IMG/VR virus record: IMGVR_UViG_3300027714_002687
Location: 1-22,882 of that record
Length of the DNA: 22,882 bases
Source: a virus
Strand: one strand, 5' to 3'
A program made the translations under genes and the position numbers. Of the stretch, positions 9,046-21,759 are shown piece after piece. The stretch's first letter is position 1. Every line of letters starts with the position of its first letter. The notes beneath the pieces were generated by a model. That model made no database searches. It was not told where the DNA came from and worked only from the letters and a program-made list of their open reading frames with translations.

Positions 9046-10200
9046 ATGGCAAGAAAAGTAAAAGAAGAAGAAGTCGGAGCTTTAAGTAAGCACGATGAGT
9101 TGGCAAATGTATTGGCAGATTCGTTAAACAAGAAGTTTAAAAAGGATGGTAAGGTAGCTTACTTCCTGGATGGATCAGAAGATACACCAACAGATTTAAC
9201 TGAATGGATTTCCACTGGATCTTCATTACTAGACTTAGCAATATCTAATAGACCTAATGGTGGTATTCCGGTTGGGCGTATCACAGAGTTGACAGGGTTA
9301 GAAGCAAGTGGGAAGAGTTTAATAGCTGCCCACTTGCTAGCTAACACTCAGAAACAAGATGGGTTAGCAGTTTACATCGATACTGAAAATGCAATGAATG
9401 AAGAATTCTTGAGAGCAATCGGTATTGATTTGAATAAGATGTTGTATATACAATTGGAAGCGATCGAAGATATCTTTGATGTTATTGAGAATATTATCAC
9501 TAAGGTGAAGGAATCAAACAAAGATAAACTAGTTACTGTTGTTGTAGATTCAGTTGCTGCAGCTACAACGAAGGTAGAACAAGCTGCTGATTATGAAAAA
9601 GATGGTTGGGCTACATCCAAAGCAATTATACTATCCAAAGCAATGAGAAAAATTACTCAGATGATTGGAAGAGAAAGAGTTGCTTTAGTATTCACAAATC
9701 AGTTGAGAGTTAAGCTGGGTGTAAGTTTTGGAGATATCTATACTACGAGTGGGGGGAAAGCTTTAGGCTTTCATGCATCTTGTAGACTTAGGTTAAAAGC
9801 TGTAGGTCAAATCAAAGCTAAGATAAATGGATTTGAACAAGTTATAGGAATCAAAACAAGAGCTAAGATTGTTAAGAATAGGATGGGACCTCCTTTAAGA
9901 GAGGCAGAGTTTCACATATTATTCAAGTCAGGAATAGATGATTATGGATCTTGGTTACAAGTAATGAAAGACTACAACCTAGTAGCTCAAGGAGGAGCAT
10001 GGTATACCTATACAGACGAAAAAACTGGCGAACAAATTAAATTCTTATCTAAAGATTTTGAAAGCAAAATTTTAAGTGATGAATCTCGTAAGGATGATAT
10101 TTATAGTAAGATATGTGATGAGCTAGTTATGTCTTATGATATAGACAGTATTGGAATAGATGATGTAGAAGTTGGAAATGATGATGTACCTATTGGATAG
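9046..10200 (+). CDS. uvsX: RecA/UvsX-type recombinase
   Basis: A 384-residue ATPase. Walker A is 'GLEASGKS' (residues 84-91), Walker B 'VTVVVDSVAA' (about 165-174), and the L2/DNA-binding region is 'TTSGGKALGFHASCRLRL'. The catalytic Glu is in 'YIDTENAM' (about 115-122). The first 45 residues are a helical N-terminal part used for filament assembly, and the C-terminus is acidic ('IGIDDVEVGNDDVPIG'), like other RecA proteins. It makes the presynaptic filament on ssDNA and performs strand exchange; in T4-like phages this also starts replication forks. It is third in the operon after Hc1 and ssb, so it is probably co-expressed with its ssDNA-binding partner. RecA versus UvsX naming is a matter of lineage; context favours UvsX. 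Confidence 0.9.
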   Translation: MARKVKEEEVGALSKHDELANVLADSLNKKFKKDGKVAYFLDGSEDTPTDLTEWISTGSSLLDLAISNRPNGGIPVGRITELTGLEASGKSLIAAHLLANTQKQDGLAVYIDTENAMNEEFLRAIGIDLNKMLYIQLEAIEDIFDVIENIITKVKESNKDKLVTVVVDSVAAATTKVEQAADYEKDGWATSKAIILSKAMRKITQMIGRERVALVFTNQLRVKLGVSFGDIYTTSGGKALGFHASCRLRLKAVGQIKAKINGFEQVIGIKTRAKIVKNRMGPPLREAEFHILFKSGIDDYGSWLQVMKDYNLVAQGGAWYTYTDEKTGEQIKFLSKDFESKILSDESRKDDIYSKICDELVMSYDIDSIGIDDVEVGNDDVPIG

Positions 10201-10209
10201 GTAAAAATT

Positions 10210-10417
10210 TTGGGTGTGGCGGAAAGTTCACTGATATCTAACCGATTGAAGTAAACTATGGAAGACGCAAAATCTCAGAGTATCGAGATTATATAATGAG
10301 AGACTTAACGGAAACTCACAATTCTTAAAGACTATAAGAATTGAATAATGGTTTTTTAAGTGTTTAACCAACCAAGCAATAGTTGAAACACTGGGGGTTC
10401 GAATCCCCCCACCCAAT
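10210..10417 (+). ncRNA. 208-base RNA with tRNA-like acceptor and T arm (unusual)
   Basis: The ends are those of a tRNA: TTGGGTG (10210-10216) pairs perfectly with CACCCAA (10410-10416), and next to it is a perfect T arm, GGGGG-TTCGAAT-CCCCC (10393-10409). After the 5' acceptor come TGGCGGAA and, 34 bases later, TGGAAGACGC, which together look like a tRNA-Leu D arm split by an insert. The rest holds three hairpins: AATCTC/GAGATT (10271-10290, 8-base loop), CAATTCTTA/TAAGAATTG (10319-10343, loop AAGACTA) and AGTGTTT/AAACACT (10359-10392). No 7-base anticodon loop with U33 is seen, and CCA is not encoded. It could be a tRNA interrupted by a small intron, a decayed tRNA, or a structured RNA using tRNA ends. 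A match to group I cores (GAGACTTAACGG at 10300-10311) is suggestive only. Confidence 0.5.
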
Positions 10418-10432
10418 CAAAATAAGTAAATT

Positions 10433-10657
10433 ATGAATAGACACCAATACACAGTAATGAGAACTAATGGTCAGTTTGACACCAGTCTATTGTATAATCA
10501 CTTTGTAACCAAAGGTGGGAATCTTCCATCGAACATATTTACATTGGCAATACAAATGCTACCAGAATTACCAGGGATTATGTTAGAATCGTTGGATCAA
10601 GAATTCAATGTAACTAGATTGGAGGATAGTATGGGTCGTACTATAAAAGTGTATTAA
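10433..10657 (+). CDS. small unknown protein between two RNA genes
   Basis: A 74-residue protein lying 15 bases after the tRNA-ended RNA and ending 3 bases before tRNA-Glu. 'HQYTVMRTNGQFDTSLLYNH' reads as a strand followed by a helix, then a hydrophobic helix ('NIFTLAIQMLPELP') and 'MGRTIKVY' at the end. No signal peptide, cysteine or known motif. The close packing between RNA genes suggests a shared transcript that is processed. Function unknown. Confidence 0.6.
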   Translation: MNRHQYTVMRTNGQFDTSLLYNHFVTKGGNLPSNIFTLAIQMLPELPGIMLESLDQEFNVTRLEDSMGRTIKVY

Positions 10658-10660
10658 AAT

Positions 10661-10732
10661 GGTCCCTTCGTCTAACGGTTAGGACATATGGTTTTCATCC
10701 ATAAAATAGGAGTTCGATTCTCCTAGGGACTA
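10661..10732 (+). tRNA. tRNA-Glu (anticodon UUC)
   Basis: A complete cloverleaf: acceptor GGTCCCT (10661-10667) with AGGGACT (10725-10731), first pair G-U; D arm GTC-TAACGGTTAG-GAC; anticodon stem TATGG/CCATA with loop TTTTCAT, so anticodon TTC reading GAA/GAG; T arm AGGAG-TTCGATT-CTCCT (10708-10724); discriminator A at 10732. CCA is not encoded, so the host must add it. GAA is a very frequent codon in these genes, which fits a supplementary role. Confidence 0.92.
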
Positions 10733-10756
10733 CAAATCAAATTCTAAGAGATCTAA

Positions 10757-18169: not shown

Positions 18170-18844
18170 ATGGGTGAACAGAAGCAAACTAAAGAGAAAA
18201 AGGTTATGGAATTATTAAAAAAAGCAAATGGCAATATGCCAAGAACAGAAGCTGAAAAAGCTACTATGATTGAGCAAGCATCAGTACATTATGGAAACTT
18301 CTTAGAAGCATTGGGCTTCGATTGGAGAGCAGATCAACACAGTGATAGAACTCCACAGAGAGTTGCTAAAGCTTGGGTAAATGATTTGATTGCAGGATCG
18401 ATTGGAAAAGAACCTGAGATCACAGCATTCCCTAATGACGAAGGATATACTGGACTAATATGTCAAACAAGAATACCAGTAATGAGTATGTGTGCACATC
18501 ACAACTTAACATTCTCGGGGGTAGCTCACGTAGCTTACATTCCAGGAAAAGAAAAGACTGATATGGTAGTTGGTTTAAGTAAACTGAATCGTATTGTTGA
18601 CTTCTATTCGAGAAGACCAAACATTCAAGAATCATTAACAAAACAAATTCATGATCATATCGAAGGATTGTGTGAAGGACATAGAGGTGTAGCAGTGGTA
18701 GTTGAATCACAACACAACTGTGTTAAGTGTAGAGGAATCAAACACGATAGTGTAATGAAGACTTCTCAGATGTCAGGTTACTTCTGGGATAGTGCTACAA
18801 CAAGATCGGAATTCTTTAGCTTAATCGATCAAAGTAGACTGTAA
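18170..18844 (+). CDS. folE: GTP cyclohydrolase I
   Basis: A 224-residue protein with a Lys/Glu-rich first ~20 residues, then the FolE core. Zinc ligands are Cys108 and His111 in 'SMCAHHNLTF' and Cys184 in 'QHNCVKCRG'. Also seen are 'RTPQRVAKAW', 'VVGLSKLNRIVDFYSRRP' and 'RGVAVVVES', all family hallmarks. It converts GTP to dihydroneopterin triphosphate, the first step toward both folate and 7-deazaguanine. Its stop overlaps the ATG of queE (TAATG), which shows that its product goes to the deazaguanine route. Regulated by the promoter just upstream. Family assignment is firm. Confidence 0.93.
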   Translation: MGEQKQTKEKKVMELLKKANGNMPRTEAEKATMIEQASVHYGNFLEALGFDWRADQHSDRTPQRVAKAWVNDLIAGSIGKEPEITAFPNDEGYTGLICQTRIPVMSMCAHHNLTFSGVAHVAYIPGKEKTDMVVGLSKLNRIVDFYSRRPNIQESLTKQIHDHIEGLCEGHRGVAVVVESQHNCVKCRGIKHDSVMKTSQMSGYFWDSATTRSEFFSLIDQSRL

Positions 18845-19617
18845 TGAATAAAAGAATAACAGATTATAATAAAGTACTCCCTATACTAGAATTGTATAGG
18901 TGTGTACAATCTGAGGGTAGTAGGTTCGGAAGACCAACGATAGCAGTTAGAACTACCGGATGTACTCATAGATGTTATTTTGGAGCTGGTGGATGGTGTG
19001 ATAGTTGGTATACTTCTATTCATCCCGAAAAGGGAGGACATACATTCCAAGACATAATTGATATATACGACGAAAATCCTCATGTAAAGGAAATGATGTT
19101 AACTGGAGGATCTCCTACGATGCATCCATCAATTGTAAACGAATTAACTCACTTTTGTAATGAGAGAGGAATAATCATGACAATTGAAACTGAAGGATCT
19201 CATTTCGTAAAGACAGATCATCCAATAGATCTAATATCACTAAGTCCTAAATTCAGTAACTCTATTCCAAAACTAGGAGCTAAGACACCTAAGGGAGTTG
19301 AAGTAACTGAGAAGATGATATCAACTCACAATAGAAAAAGGATGAATATCGAAGCGATAAAACAGACTTTAGATTATCATACCGATTATCATTACAAACC
19401 AGTTTGGGATGGAACTATGTCAAATTTAGATGAAATTGAAGCATTGAGATTAGAACTAAATATTCCTAAGGATAAAACTTATATTATGCCAGCAGGGGAT
19501 AATAGAGAGACATTGATTATTATGTATCCAATAGTGTTTGAGATGTGTGCTGAGCATGGATACAATATGACTGGACGAGATCACATTATTGCATACGATA
19601 CTAAGATAATGGTGTAA
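18844..19617 (+). CDS. queE: 7-carboxy-7-deazaguanine synthase, radical SAM
   Basis: A 257-residue radical SAM protein. 'YRCVQSEGSRFGRPTIAVRT' is the QueE N-terminal substrate region ('QGEGxxxGxPxxFxR'). The [4Fe-4S] cysteines are Cys40, Cys44 and Cys52 in 'GCTHRCYFGAGGWCDSWYT': spacing CX3CX7C, where the standard enzyme has CX3CX2C. 'MMLTGGSPTMHP' is the SAM-binding GGE-like segment and 'TIETEGSH' follows, both typical of QueE. It turns 6-carboxytetrahydropterin into 7-carboxy-7-deazaguanine. It overlaps folE by one base and is followed by a 49-residue gene with ATGA-type overlap. Regulation is with folE. Family assignment is firm; the cluster loop is unusual. Confidence 0.88.
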   Translation: MNKRITDYNKVLPILELYRCVQSEGSRFGRPTIAVRTTGCTHRCYFGAGGWCDSWYTSIHPEKGGHTFQDIIDIYDENPHVKEMMLTGGSPTMHPSIVNELTHFCNERGIIMTIETEGSHFVKTDHPIDLISLSPKFSNSIPKLGAKTPKGVEVTEKMISTHNRKRMNIEAIKQTLDYHTDYHYKPVWDGTMSNLDEIEALRLELNIPKDKTYIMPAGDNRETLIIMYPIVFEMCAEHGYNMTGRDHIIAYDTKIMV

Positions 19618-19766
19618 TGACTGTAAAAGAAGTGTATGCTATATTAAAGGAAATTGAAGATCACGTAGAAGACACTTGCTGTACTGTAACTATGGATTCA
19701 GATGAAGTGAAAGACTTAATAACAAAATTAAGAAAAGCAATACATACCTACTCTCAACAAAAATAA
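19617..19766 (+). CDS. 49-residue unknown protein coupled to queE
   Basis: A 49-residue protein whose ATG overlaps the queE stop (TAATGA), too short for many gene finders. It is almost all helix ('VKEVYAILKEIEDHVEDT', then 'SDEVKDLITKLRKAIHTY') with a Cys-Cys pair in the turn between the helices. This looks like a helical hairpin. The tight coupling suggests a partner of the deazaguanine enzymes or a chance cistron in the operon. Function unknown. Confidence 0.5.
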   Translation: MTVKEVYAILKEIEDHVEDTCCTVTMDSDEVKDLITKLRKAIHTYSQQK

Positions 19767-19785
19767 ATATTATCAAGTGAAAAAC

Positions 19786-19816
19786 TTGCATAATTCAAAT
19801 ATATTCCGTATATTTA
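19786..19816 (+). promoter_or_regulatory. Bacteroidota-type promoter upstream of queD
   Basis: TTG 19786-19788 (CTTGCATAATTC), 20-base spacer, TATATTTA 19809-19816; the ATG of queD is at 19840. It likely drives queD and the following nuclease-like, phosphoribosyltransferase and dUTPase-like genes. Confidence 0.65.
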
Positions 19817-19839
19817 ATATATAAACAAAGAAGAATAAT

Positions 19840-20331
19840 ATGGCAAAATATCAATCAACAAAAATATTCGATAACTATTCTGTAGCACTAAGACAATGGA
19901 GAGCTCAACATTCACATTGTCAATTACTTCATGGATATGCTTTGAAGTTTAAAGTGTGGTTTGAAGCAAACGATACATCTGAGAATGATGGCTTGGATGA
20001 GATGAACTGGATTGTAGATTATGGTGGGTTTAAGAATACAGACGCTGAACCAACTCCTGGTAATGGATTGAAGAAGTGGATGAATAGTATGTGGGATCAC
20101 ACTACACTAATTGAGAAGGATGATCCTCAGTTAGAGACATTCAAGTATATGGAAGAACTTGGATTATGTAAACTTGTCGTTATGGATAAGATGGGAGCTG
20201 AGTCTTGTGCAAGAATGGTGTACGAACACTTCAACGAACGATTAGCATTAACAGATGGAGGTAGATGTAAAGTAGTTAAAGTTGAGTGTTGGGAAAACAA
20301 TAGTAATTCGTCAATATATAAAGAACAATAA
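19840..20331 (+). CDS. queD: 6-carboxytetrahydropterin synthase (QueD/PTPS family)
   Basis: A 163-residue T-fold protein. Near the start, 'WRAQHSHCQLLHGYALKFKV' holds His24/His26, the catalytic-type Cys27 and His31. The usual 'HGH' is 'HGY' here, so the third zinc His is Tyr33; I recall HGY in a phage/marine QueD subgroup, but cannot check it. 'NWIVDYGGFK' and 'WDHTTLIEKDD' (Asp86, His87) and 'VECWENNSNS' (Glu149) are family features. It turns dihydroneopterin triphosphate into 6-carboxytetrahydropterin, linking FolE to QueE. It has its own promoter and is followed by a nuclease-like gene after one base. Family assignment is firm; chemistry could be altered by the Tyr. Confidence 0.86.
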   Translation: MAKYQSTKIFDNYSVALRQWRAQHSHCQLLHGYALKFKVWFEANDTSENDGLDEMNWIVDYGGFKNTDAEPTPGNGLKKWMNSMWDHTTLIEKDDPQLETFKYMEELGLCKLVVMDKMGAESCARMVYEHFNERLALTDGGRCKVVKVECWENNSNSSIYKEQ

Positions 20332-20332
20332 T

Positions 20333-20761
20333 ATGAGTATTTTAGAAAAAAAGTTTGGATCAGTAGGAAAAAAGGGTGATAGTGCTGAGGAGTGGGTTAT
20401 GAATAAACTATCGTCTGTATATCAAGTGGAAGACTTGAGGAATGATTGGAAGTCACAGATTGATGGAATTGATTTTGGTATTACAAAAAGTGCTTGGAAG
20501 AATACATACTACCTAGATAGTAAAGGTAATTTGAATGGTGACATATTCTACTTGGAAATGGAAAAGAATGGTAAGCCAGGTTGGTTTATGAAATCAAAGT
20601 CCGATAGAATATATCACATTGACGTTAATGCCGGTAGAGGATACTGGTACAGTTTACCTGATATGAGATTGTTGATGTCTAAGATGGGGGTGACCAGTGG
20701 ATTATATAAGATAGATGTTACAGATATTAAATTTAAAAACTTACTAAGGATAATTTACTAA
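20333..20761 (+). CDS. possible PD-(D/E)XK nuclease-like protein in the deazaguanine cluster
   Basis: A 142-residue protein. The ATG at 20333, one base after the queD stop, is preferred over an in-frame ATG at 20282 inside queD. 'KKGDSAEEWVMNKLSSVYQV' is a helix with a Glu, as in the first helix of restriction-endonuclease-like folds. Then come 'RNDWKSQIDGIDFGI' with an Asp at the strand end, and 'YYLDSKGNL' giving a D-x-K motif on the next strand: the order Glu - Asp - (D/E)xK expected of this fold. 'MEKNGKPGWFMKSKSDRIYH' follows. It could cut unmodified DNA, or process replication intermediates. The fold call is by pattern only. Its stop overlaps the next ATG (TAATG). Confidence 0.5.
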   Translation: MSILEKKFGSVGKKGDSAEEWVMNKLSSVYQVEDLRNDWKSQIDGIDFGITKSAWKNTYYLDSKGNLNGDIFYLEMEKNGKPGWFMKSKSDRIYHIDVNAGRGYWYSLPDMRLLMSKMGVTSGLYKIDVTDIKFKNLLRIIY

Positions 20762-21267
20762 TGAGGGTATTGATTACAAAAAAGCAATTAGCTAAAAGAA
20801 TTAAAGAATTGGGACAAGAGTTATCTAGACACGATGAGAATAACATCAACCCATTACCTCCCGTATTTATCTGTGTACTTAATGGAGCTTTCATGTTCTT
20901 CACAGACTTGGTTAGGAATTATGATAAGACTTGTGAACTAGATTTCATTAGAGCTAAATCGTATGAAGGAAAAGATAACTCAGGTGGAGTAAGCATTACT
21001 AAGGATATTGAAGTTGATATTCAAGGTAGAGATATTTACATAGTTGAAGATATTATAGACACAGGAAATACAATGAAGGAACTAATCATTCACCTTAATC
21101 AGAAATCACCTAAAAGTATTAAGGTGGTGACTATGTTGAAAAGGAAAGGAGACGATCATCCCATAGATTATTGTGGGTTTGAAATAGGTGATGAATGGGT
21201 GATTGGATTCGGACTCGATGACAATGGCTTAAGTAGGAACTTACCAGATATTTACGACATAAATTAA
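20761..21267 (+). CDS. hypoxanthine-type phosphoribosyltransferase
   Basis: A 168-residue type I PRTase. The PRPP-binding loop is 'VEDIIDTGNT' (residues 95-104), and upstream is the hydrophobic 'FICVLNGAFMFFTDL' strand that ends in the first PRPP loop. 'DFIRAKSYEG' corresponds to the flexible-loop region, and the C-terminal 'WVIGFGLDDNGLSRNLPDIY' is the base-recognition end typical of hypoxanthine-guanine PRTases. It joins a purine base with PRPP to give a nucleotide. Overlaps the preceding nuclease-like gene by one base. In this setting it may salvage hypoxanthine/guanine, or, more speculatively, put a 7-deazaguanine base onto ribose-5-phosphate. Family assignment is firm; substrate is not shown by the sequence. 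Confidence 0.82.
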   Translation: MRVLITKKQLAKRIKELGQELSRHDENNINPLPPVFICVLNGAFMFFTDLVRNYDKTCELDFIRAKSYEGKDNSGGVSITKDIEVDIQGRDIYIVEDIIDTGNTMKELIIHLNQKSPKSIKVVTMLKRKGDDHPIDYCGFEIGDEWVIGFGLDDNGLSRNLPDIYDIN

Positions 21268-21279
21268 AAGAGACAATAA

Positions 21280-21759
21280 ATGTTATTAAACGCAAAACAA
21301 GTGGAAGCGATGCTTACCACAAACAATAAAGGAAAGAAGGCTCAAGTAGGATATGACCTAACTGTATCAAACATAAGCATGATCAATGGAGGAATACTAT
21401 ATTCAGATAAAACAGAAATAGATGACTATATTCCAATGAATACTACCAGTGAGGATGGGAAAGAATTATGGAGACTGACACCAGGATCTTATAGTATTAC
21501 ATTTGAGCAAGGATGCAAACTGGATGATAAGACAACAGCATTTATTCGTCAAAGATCTTCACTATTAAGAATGGGAGGAATAGTTACGAGTGGTGTATAT
21601 GACCCAGGATTTGAAACTGATTTAATGGGAGGTGTTATGATTCTAAGTGACTCGATCAAGATAGAGAAGGGAGCTAGAATTGCACAAATCATTATGCATG
21701 AGAATAGTCCTTCTGAACTTTATGATGGGCAATTCCAAGGAAATAAAGATATCAAATAA
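21280..21759 (+). CDS. dUTPase / dCTP deaminase-superfamily protein
   Basis: A 159-residue protein. 'QVGYDLTV' (about 22-29), 'RQRSSLLRMGG' (residues 90-100, with the R-S-S motif), 'GVYDPGFETDL' (Asp108), 'KGARIAQIIMHE' and 'ELYDGQFQGN' are the ordered motifs of the trimeric dUTPase/Dcd superfamily. In E. coli Dcd the deaminating Glu lies ten residues after the Asp of 'DPG'; here that place is Gly118, so deamination is doubtful and dUTP hydrolysis, or another nucleotide, is more likely. It keeps uracil out of phage DNA or feeds dUMP to dTMP synthesis. It starts 12 bases after the phosphoribosyltransferase, in the queD operon. Confidence 0.75.
   Translation: MLLNAKQVEAMLTTNNKGKKAQVGYDLTVSNISMINGGILYSDKTEIDDYIPMNTTSEDGKELWRLTPGSYSITFEQGCKLDDKTTAFIRQRSSLLRMGGIVTSGVYDPGFETDLMGGVMILSDSIKIEKGARIAQIIMHENSPSELYDGQFQGNKDIK

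Follow-up and report, generated by a model that had tools for sequence, protein, structure and literature searches.

A structured RNA behind the recA gene

The window analyzed here is the whole stretch of a 22,882-base viral record, and all coordinates of the RNA refer to it. A structured RNA lies at positions 10210 to 10417 on the plus strand, as do all of its parts described below. Its existence and limits had been proposed in a first-pass annotation; the coordinates were found to be exact, and both the fold and covariation in relatives bear the proposal out. Directly upstream lies a gene for a RecA/UvsX recombinase (9046 to 10200, plus strand; Pfam RecA, E value of 1.9e-57), and the RNA starts 9 nt past its stop codon. 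This arrangement is constant: in all 19 members of the family for which this distance was measured, 5 to 10 nt separate the recA stop codon from the start of the RNA on the same strand. L098 has the arrangement of those 19 members, and in L144 and L147 the RNA likewise adjoins recA. On its 3' side, the window harbors an open reading frame of 74 amino acids (10433 to 10657), followed by a gene for tRNA-Glu(UUC) (10661 to 10733, plus strand), which was called by ARAGORN, scores 62.8 bits in Rfam, and is an ordinary tRNA that neighbors the RNA without being part of it. The RNA had been described as lying directly before this tRNA. That is true of L001 and L002, where tRNA-Glu begins 6 to 7 nt behind the RNA; in the window, the distance is 243 nt and the open reading frame intervenes.

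A run of nucleotide-metabolism genes was found at 18170 to 21759 of the window. It comprises GTP-cyclohydrolase-like, QueD-like/6-pyruvoyl-tetrahydropterin-synthase, and dCTP-deaminase-like open reading frames, assigned by eye, as well as a radical SAM protein (QueE-like) and a phosphoribosyltransferase, both domain-tested. These genes suggest 7-deazaguanine DNA or nucleotide modification.

Collection of relatives

Relatives were located by scanning with the RecA protein and inspecting the sequence downstream of recA. More were obtained with two degenerate-pattern scans, one for the D arm plus T loop and one for the loop of hairpin P6 (see below) plus pseudoknot and T loop, and two further RecA scans enlarged the set. 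In total, 25 distinct sequences of 194 to 263 nt were collected, with the window among them and the others from IMG/VR viral contigs; the carriers are uncultured, mostly marine phages. The counts given below refer to 23 of these sequences, as L144 and L147 were found later and held out.

tRNA-like parts of the RNA

The 5' strand of the acceptor stem (10210 to 10216) pairs with 10410 to 10416 at 7 of 7 positions, and double changes occur among relatives at six of these seven pairs. The segment that follows (10217 to 10224) holds U8, G9, the 5' strand of the D stem (GCG, 10219 to 10221), G13, A14, and A15; a second segment (10260 to 10268), placed by the fixed-frame alignment described below, holds G18, G19, and the 3' strand of the D stem (CGC, 10266 to 10268). 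The D stem has 3 bp and occurs as GCG/CGC, GTG/CAC, and ATG/CAT among the 23 sequences. The T arm, GGGGG-UUCGAAU-CCCCC (10393 to 10409), is fully paired (10393 to 10397 with 10405 to 10409, 5 of 5); two of its pairs co-vary, and its loop, UUCGAAY, is invariant. The complete pairing of both arms agrees with the initial description, as does the presence of two D-arm pieces, TGGCGGAA and TGGAAGACGC, which lie 34 nt apart. The 3' end (10410 to 10417) consists of the acceptor 3' strand and a U at discriminator position 73, and CCA is not encoded.

Across the 23 sequences, U8, A14, A15, G18-G19, U48, and the T-loop sequence UUCGAA are invariant. The discriminator position is not fixed (U in 9, A in 6, G in 4, and C in 4 sequences), and five members depart from strict conservation of A20a, a base used by leucyl-tRNA synthetase (LeuRS). 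The acceptor stem is mismatched or bulged in 5 of the 23, namely L037, L038, L039, and L100, which form one lineage, and L020 from another. Such stems, e.g., AATCA-AAC-GCG with CGC-TGATT, are unusual for anything acting as a tRNA. The D arm had been called leucine-like, and this reading holds: among the 32 tRNAs that ARAGORN found in the collected loci, admittedly a small set, the motif UGGYGGAA..GG..AGACRC occurs in tRNA-Leu only.

Added hairpins and two pseudoknots

Three hairpins between the arms and the lack of a normal anticodon loop had been noted before, and both were seen. P3 (10225 to 10259) is a hairpin inserted in the D loop, with 35 nt in the window and 33 to 58 nt in relatives; its layout is shared by almost every member. 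P4 (10271 to 10290) stands at the position of the anticodon arm and has an 8-nt loop in place of an anticodon loop; in relatives, P4 loops measure 4 to 11 nt and share no common sequence. In the compact members, P4 follows directly after the D stem and is reduced to a 5-bp stem with a tetraloop of the UACG, UAAG, UGCG, or UUGC type.

At the position of the variable arm, the RNA instead carries two hairpins (P5 and P6), an H-type pseudoknot, and a kissing pseudoknot. P5 (10298 to 10317) has a conserved loop, (U)UARCG, in which UARC is present in 23 of 23 sequences; its inner stem is weak in the window and varies as CGG/CCG, CAG/CTG, AGG/CCT, GTC/GAC, and ATC/GAT in relatives. P6 (10319 to 10343) is an 8-bp hairpin with the 9-nt loop AAAG-ACUAU, which has the form AAAG-N5 in the layout of the family. 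All seven counted pairs of P6 change on both sides, and 100% of its cells (a cell being one pair in one sequence) are paired.

The H-type pseudoknot (10350 to 10369 plus a distal strand) is formed by a 4-bp stem S1, GGUU (10350 to 10353) with AACC (10366 to 10369), a U-rich loop (10354 to 10358; 5 to 7 nt across members), and a 7-bp stem S2, whose 5' strand AGUGUUU (10359 to 10365) pairs with AAACACU (10386 to 10392). The latter strand abuts the T arm, and its last base is U48. Variants of S1 are GGUU/AACC, GGGC/GCCC, GGCU/AGCC, and AGGU/ACCU, and those of S2 are AGUGUUU/AAACACU, AGUACUU/AAGUACU, and AGUUUUU/AAAAACU. The kissing pseudoknot joins GACUAU of the P6 loop (10330 to 10335) to AUAGUU (10379 to 10384) in the last loop of the H-type pseudoknot by 6 bp; it appears as GACUAU/AUAGUU, GAUUAC/GUAAUC, and GAGUAC/GUACUU, and as GAGCGC/GUGCUU in a held-out sequence. 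A triple helix of the U-rich loop with S2 is possible; it rests on one lineage and is not claimed here.

Statistical support for the fold

Folded as a single sequence, the RNA reaches -50.5 kcal/mol (z = -3.1), a value equaled by 1 of 200 shuffles. For the comparison among relatives, members were cut into segments and aligned by a fixed frame, in which partner segments were first chosen by score. In this frame, 97.9% of the cells of the 23 sequences pair, compared with 81.2% in shuffles; of 39 base pairs, 24 show changes at both positions with pairing retained (shuffle mean, 15.8); and 148 cells are changed on both sides, compared with 40 in shuffles. None of 500 shuffles reached any of the five measures, and sliding the register by 1 to 3 columns lowered pairing to 37 to 48% and the number of pairs with double changes to 5 to 8.

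Because the partner segments of the fixed frame had been chosen by score, the fold was also checked with MAFFT and RNAalifold. In a full-length MAFFT alignment, 23 of 40 pairs change on both sides, and all measures lie above the shuffle mean, with 0 to 5 of 500 shuffles as high. RNAalifold, given no structure, predicted the acceptor, D stem, P6, S2, and T arm, with compensation at 17 of 28 pairs. The held-out L144 and L147 fit every helix tested, and GAGCGC/GUGCUU in L147 is a double change at a kissing pair that was invariant beforehand; S2 and the kissing pair vary in few lineages, and changes shared by related sequences are non-independent events. The compensatory changes in relatives that the first-pass annotation had called for are thus present by all three approaches, which refutes drift without function. 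Judged by this comparison of sequences, the fold is kept by selection.

Distribution among phages and bacteria

A covariance model (R1) built from 20 members gave every member 119 to 218 bits and true tRNA-Leu genes about 23 to 34 bits; the best nonmembers among the collected loci, including the tRNA-Leu(UAG) of L087, scored about 23 bits. With this model, one copy was found per carrying record, and large relatives without the RNA behind recA had no copy elsewhere in the record. Many close relatives do without the RNA altogether and have other elements, or nothing, behind recA; therefore, the RNA is dispensable for this phage group. On the RecA tree, whose deep branches are poorly supported, its presence requires a minimum of two changes (16 rows; 14.2 expected after shuffling), and the carriers are the window lineage, the L001/L002 lineage, and a clade of 13.

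BLAST comparisons of the RNA with phage records yielded either no match or none that was convincing, and a pattern scan of GTDB contigs gave eight matches, all by chance. Among 199 genomes of the bacterial family to which an Algibacter metagenome-assembled genome belongs, 7 had weak matches to model R1 (25 to 35 bits). Five of these loci were inspected and none was a member of the RNA family: they comprised a true tRNA-Leu, an oversized tRNA-like gene, two loci of glutamate dehydrogenase (by eye), and one match that was taken as chance. The bacterial genome G060 contains two consecutive oversized tRNA-like genes (L292:199-328 and L292:402-518), the second of which resembles a tRNA-Glu(UUC) whose D arm and anticodon arm are set apart by about 45 inserted nt.

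Two other conserved elements were observed near recA. The first is an RNA of about 115 nt ('AAAGGCCACCTTCNCGTGGT...AGAGCCTTT') in more than 20 viral loci (e.g., L009:6137-6262, L020:3627-3752, L040:2451-2576, and L048:2611-2736), with compensation at 6 of 23 predicted pairs. The second is a stretch of about 150 nt ('AAGCTGAWACCAA...CTAGAAAATA...TAGCT') just after recA in L051 to L054, L057, L058, L063, L073, and L075 to L078, followed in several by a terminator-like hairpin; it shows weak covariation in a poor alignment. Neither had an Rfam match in the examples tested.

Comparison with known RNA classes

ARAGORN called the tRNA-Glu as the only tRNA of the window, leaving 10210 to 10417 uncalled, and Rfam searches at an E value of ≤10 gave nothing there, the tRNA model RF00005 included. 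Both results accord with the earlier view that the RNA is neither a normal tRNA nor a tmRNA. The acceptor, D arm, T arm, and bases for tertiary contacts of a tRNA are in place, apart from the five imperfect acceptors; a 5-bp anticodon stem with a 7-nt loop, U33, and a readable anticodon were not found, P4 loops having 4 to 11 nt.

With bacterial class II tRNA-Leu, the RNA shares the 7-bp acceptor, U8-A14, the 3-bp D stem with GGYGGAA..GGNAGACRC, A15-U48, G18G19, the T loop UUCGAAY, and an enlarged variable region. However, tRNA-Leu has about 82 to 84 nt, compared with about 194 to 263 nt here, and the RNA differs by its D-loop hairpin, the absence of an anticodon loop, a discriminator that is not fixed, the two hairpins and two pseudoknots replacing the variable arm, and its escape from ARAGORN. 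The LeuRS of Escherichia coli needs A15-U48, G18G19, and A73, while neither the anticodon arm nor the long variable arm is required (PMC9976931). This identity set is incomplete in the family: A15-U48 and G18G19 are kept in all members, and A73 is present in 6 of 23. Since the elbow features are kept and the discriminator is not fixed, leucine charging is unlikely as a conserved function.

The tmRNA family (RF00023, including forms without a coding sequence [CDS], e.g., that of phage DS6A) resembles the RNA in that a tRNA-like acceptor and T arm close a larger, pseudoknotted molecule and in its occurrence in phages. In contrast to tmRNA, the RNA has a real D stem and a leucine-type D arm, and no P2 helix was found. 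The tmRNA model gave no match in the window at an E value of ≤10, and in L001 it gave a 17-nt piece of the T arm at 13.3 bits, compared with a gathering threshold of 47. The G3-U70 pair is absent in 23 of 23 sequences, where pair 3 is G-C, A-U, or U-A or, in four, a mismatched A-G. By eye, the conserved stretches are stems and the length varies freely between 194 and 263 nt, and a coding sequence was rejected on these grounds; no tag reading frame was seen by eye, and tmRNAs lacking a CDS exist.

Plant-virus tRNA-like structures form the 3' terminus of RNA genomes and, as a rule, undergo aminoacylation. They too are viral tRNA mimics with pseudoknots, but the RNA described here is encoded downstream of recA in DNA phages, and its acceptor stem is of the ordinary, unknotted kind. 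Elaborate folds and an origin in phages or metagenomes are also typical of GOLLD and the other large ornate RNAs; these are much larger, and the RNA has no match to Rfam models.

Three further candidates were discarded. A tRNA with a very small intron, one of the first suggestions, does not account for the extra bases, which are conserved, co-varying helices including two pseudoknots; moreover, the compact members have a 5-bp arm with a tetraloop in place of the anticodon arm, so splicing restores no anticodon. A group I intron, for which a model search had been advised, had no Rfam match at an E value of ≤10, and the R-element-like AGAGACUUAACGG of the window is not common to relatives. The spacing would fit a recA readthrough or frameshift signal, but the frame past the stop closes in fewer than about 20 codons in the window and about 12 in L001 (by eye).

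The architecture, i.e., a class II tRNA core without anticodon, with a D-loop hairpin, an H-type pseudoknot, and a kissing pseudoknot, is outside every family tested, and we found no description of such an RNA in the open-licence full-text literature. We call the RNA categorically new because its architecture fits no tested family and lacks defining features of tRNA and tmRNA. If every tRNA-derived RNA were counted as one kind, it would be a variant of that kind.

Possible origin and role

We tentatively favor, at slightly less than even confidence, a non-decoding RNA that arose from a class II tRNA-Leu, is carried at the 3' end of the recA (uvsX) transcript, is freed by host tRNA enzymes, and acts in trans as a competitor or decoy. 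It may be, although we are somewhat doubtful, that a tRNA-Leu was turned into a non-decoding mimic with a double-pseudoknot body that, after tRNA-like processing, traps or blocks a host factor handling tRNA. Transcription would place the RNA at the 3' end of the recA message, and host RNase P, 3'-processing enzymes, and CCA-adding enzyme would take it as a tRNA. RNase P and CCA-adding enzymes recognize an intact acceptor and T arm, which makes tRNA-like processing, as predicted from these two parts, likely. Excision from the recA transcript would leave a stable free RNA, whose pseudoknot body may provide stability and specificity and which would offer its tRNA elbow and acceptor to a tRNA-binding factor of the host or its defense, as a competitor or decoy barred from decoding. 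LeuRS would be the first candidate target because it recognizes tRNA-Leu by the elbow and not by the anticodon. There are precedents for decoys of tRNA type in phages: phage DS6A has a tmRNA without a CDS that inhibits the host tmRNA in E. coli (PMC11915505), and a tRNA-Tyr of phage origin acts against Septu, perhaps by serving as a decoy (PMC13096335).

Several findings count against parts of this proposal. The imperfect acceptors in two lineages are odd for a substrate of RNase P and the CCA-adding enzyme, the need of LeuRS for A73 speaks against this target, and the strict linkage to recA suits a role in cis equally well. Such a role is the main rival, though we consider it rather unlikely: the RNA would be a 3' element of the recA message that blocks 3'-to-5' exonucleases by its compact, pseudoknotted fold or lets RNase P set the 3' end of the message by cleavage there, and nothing would act in trans. 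The constant spacing from the recA stop codon argues for it, but 5 to 10 nt is also normal phage gene packing. Also in its favor, other lineages have terminator-like hairpins or different conserved elements immediately past recA, but in several relatives the next gene follows straight after recA with nothing between, and two pseudoknots plus a leucine-type elbow exceed what a roadblock needs.

The retention of the acceptor, elbow, and enlarged variable region together with the loss of the anticodon would also suit a counter-defense decoy for a tRNA-acting toxin or nuclease that does not target the anticodon loop, e.g., a variable-loop cutter or 3'-end modifier; we consider this improbable, and the RNA is not tied to a particular enzyme. 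A tag-less tmRNA relative that interferes with host trans-translation is very improbable. The CDS-less tmRNA of phage DS6A (PMC11915505) is a precedent here too, and the tRNA-like ends and pseudoknots fit, but the sole match is the 17-nt T-arm piece at 13 bits, and the missing G3-U70, the true D stem, and the leucine-type D arm point elsewhere. That the locus is a functionless, decaying tRNA-Leu gene or a functionless tRNA interrupted by small introns is hardly credible: oversized tRNA genes with apparent short insertions do exist elsewhere (e.g., L292:402-518), but covariation is strong in parts absent from tRNA, and the most compact members have no anticodon arm to restore.

RNAs in which a domain was added to a tRNA core and decoding was dropped are rare, with tmRNA as the outstanding case. 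If our reading as a non-decoding, tRNA-Leu-derived RNA that acts in trans is true, the family would be a second such RNA, this time in phages, and would provide a test object for viral tRNA mimicry against bacteria. It would also imply that viral genomes contain oversized tRNA relatives that escape both Rfam and the tRNA gene finders. Structural and binding studies can start directly from the fold as it is now defined.
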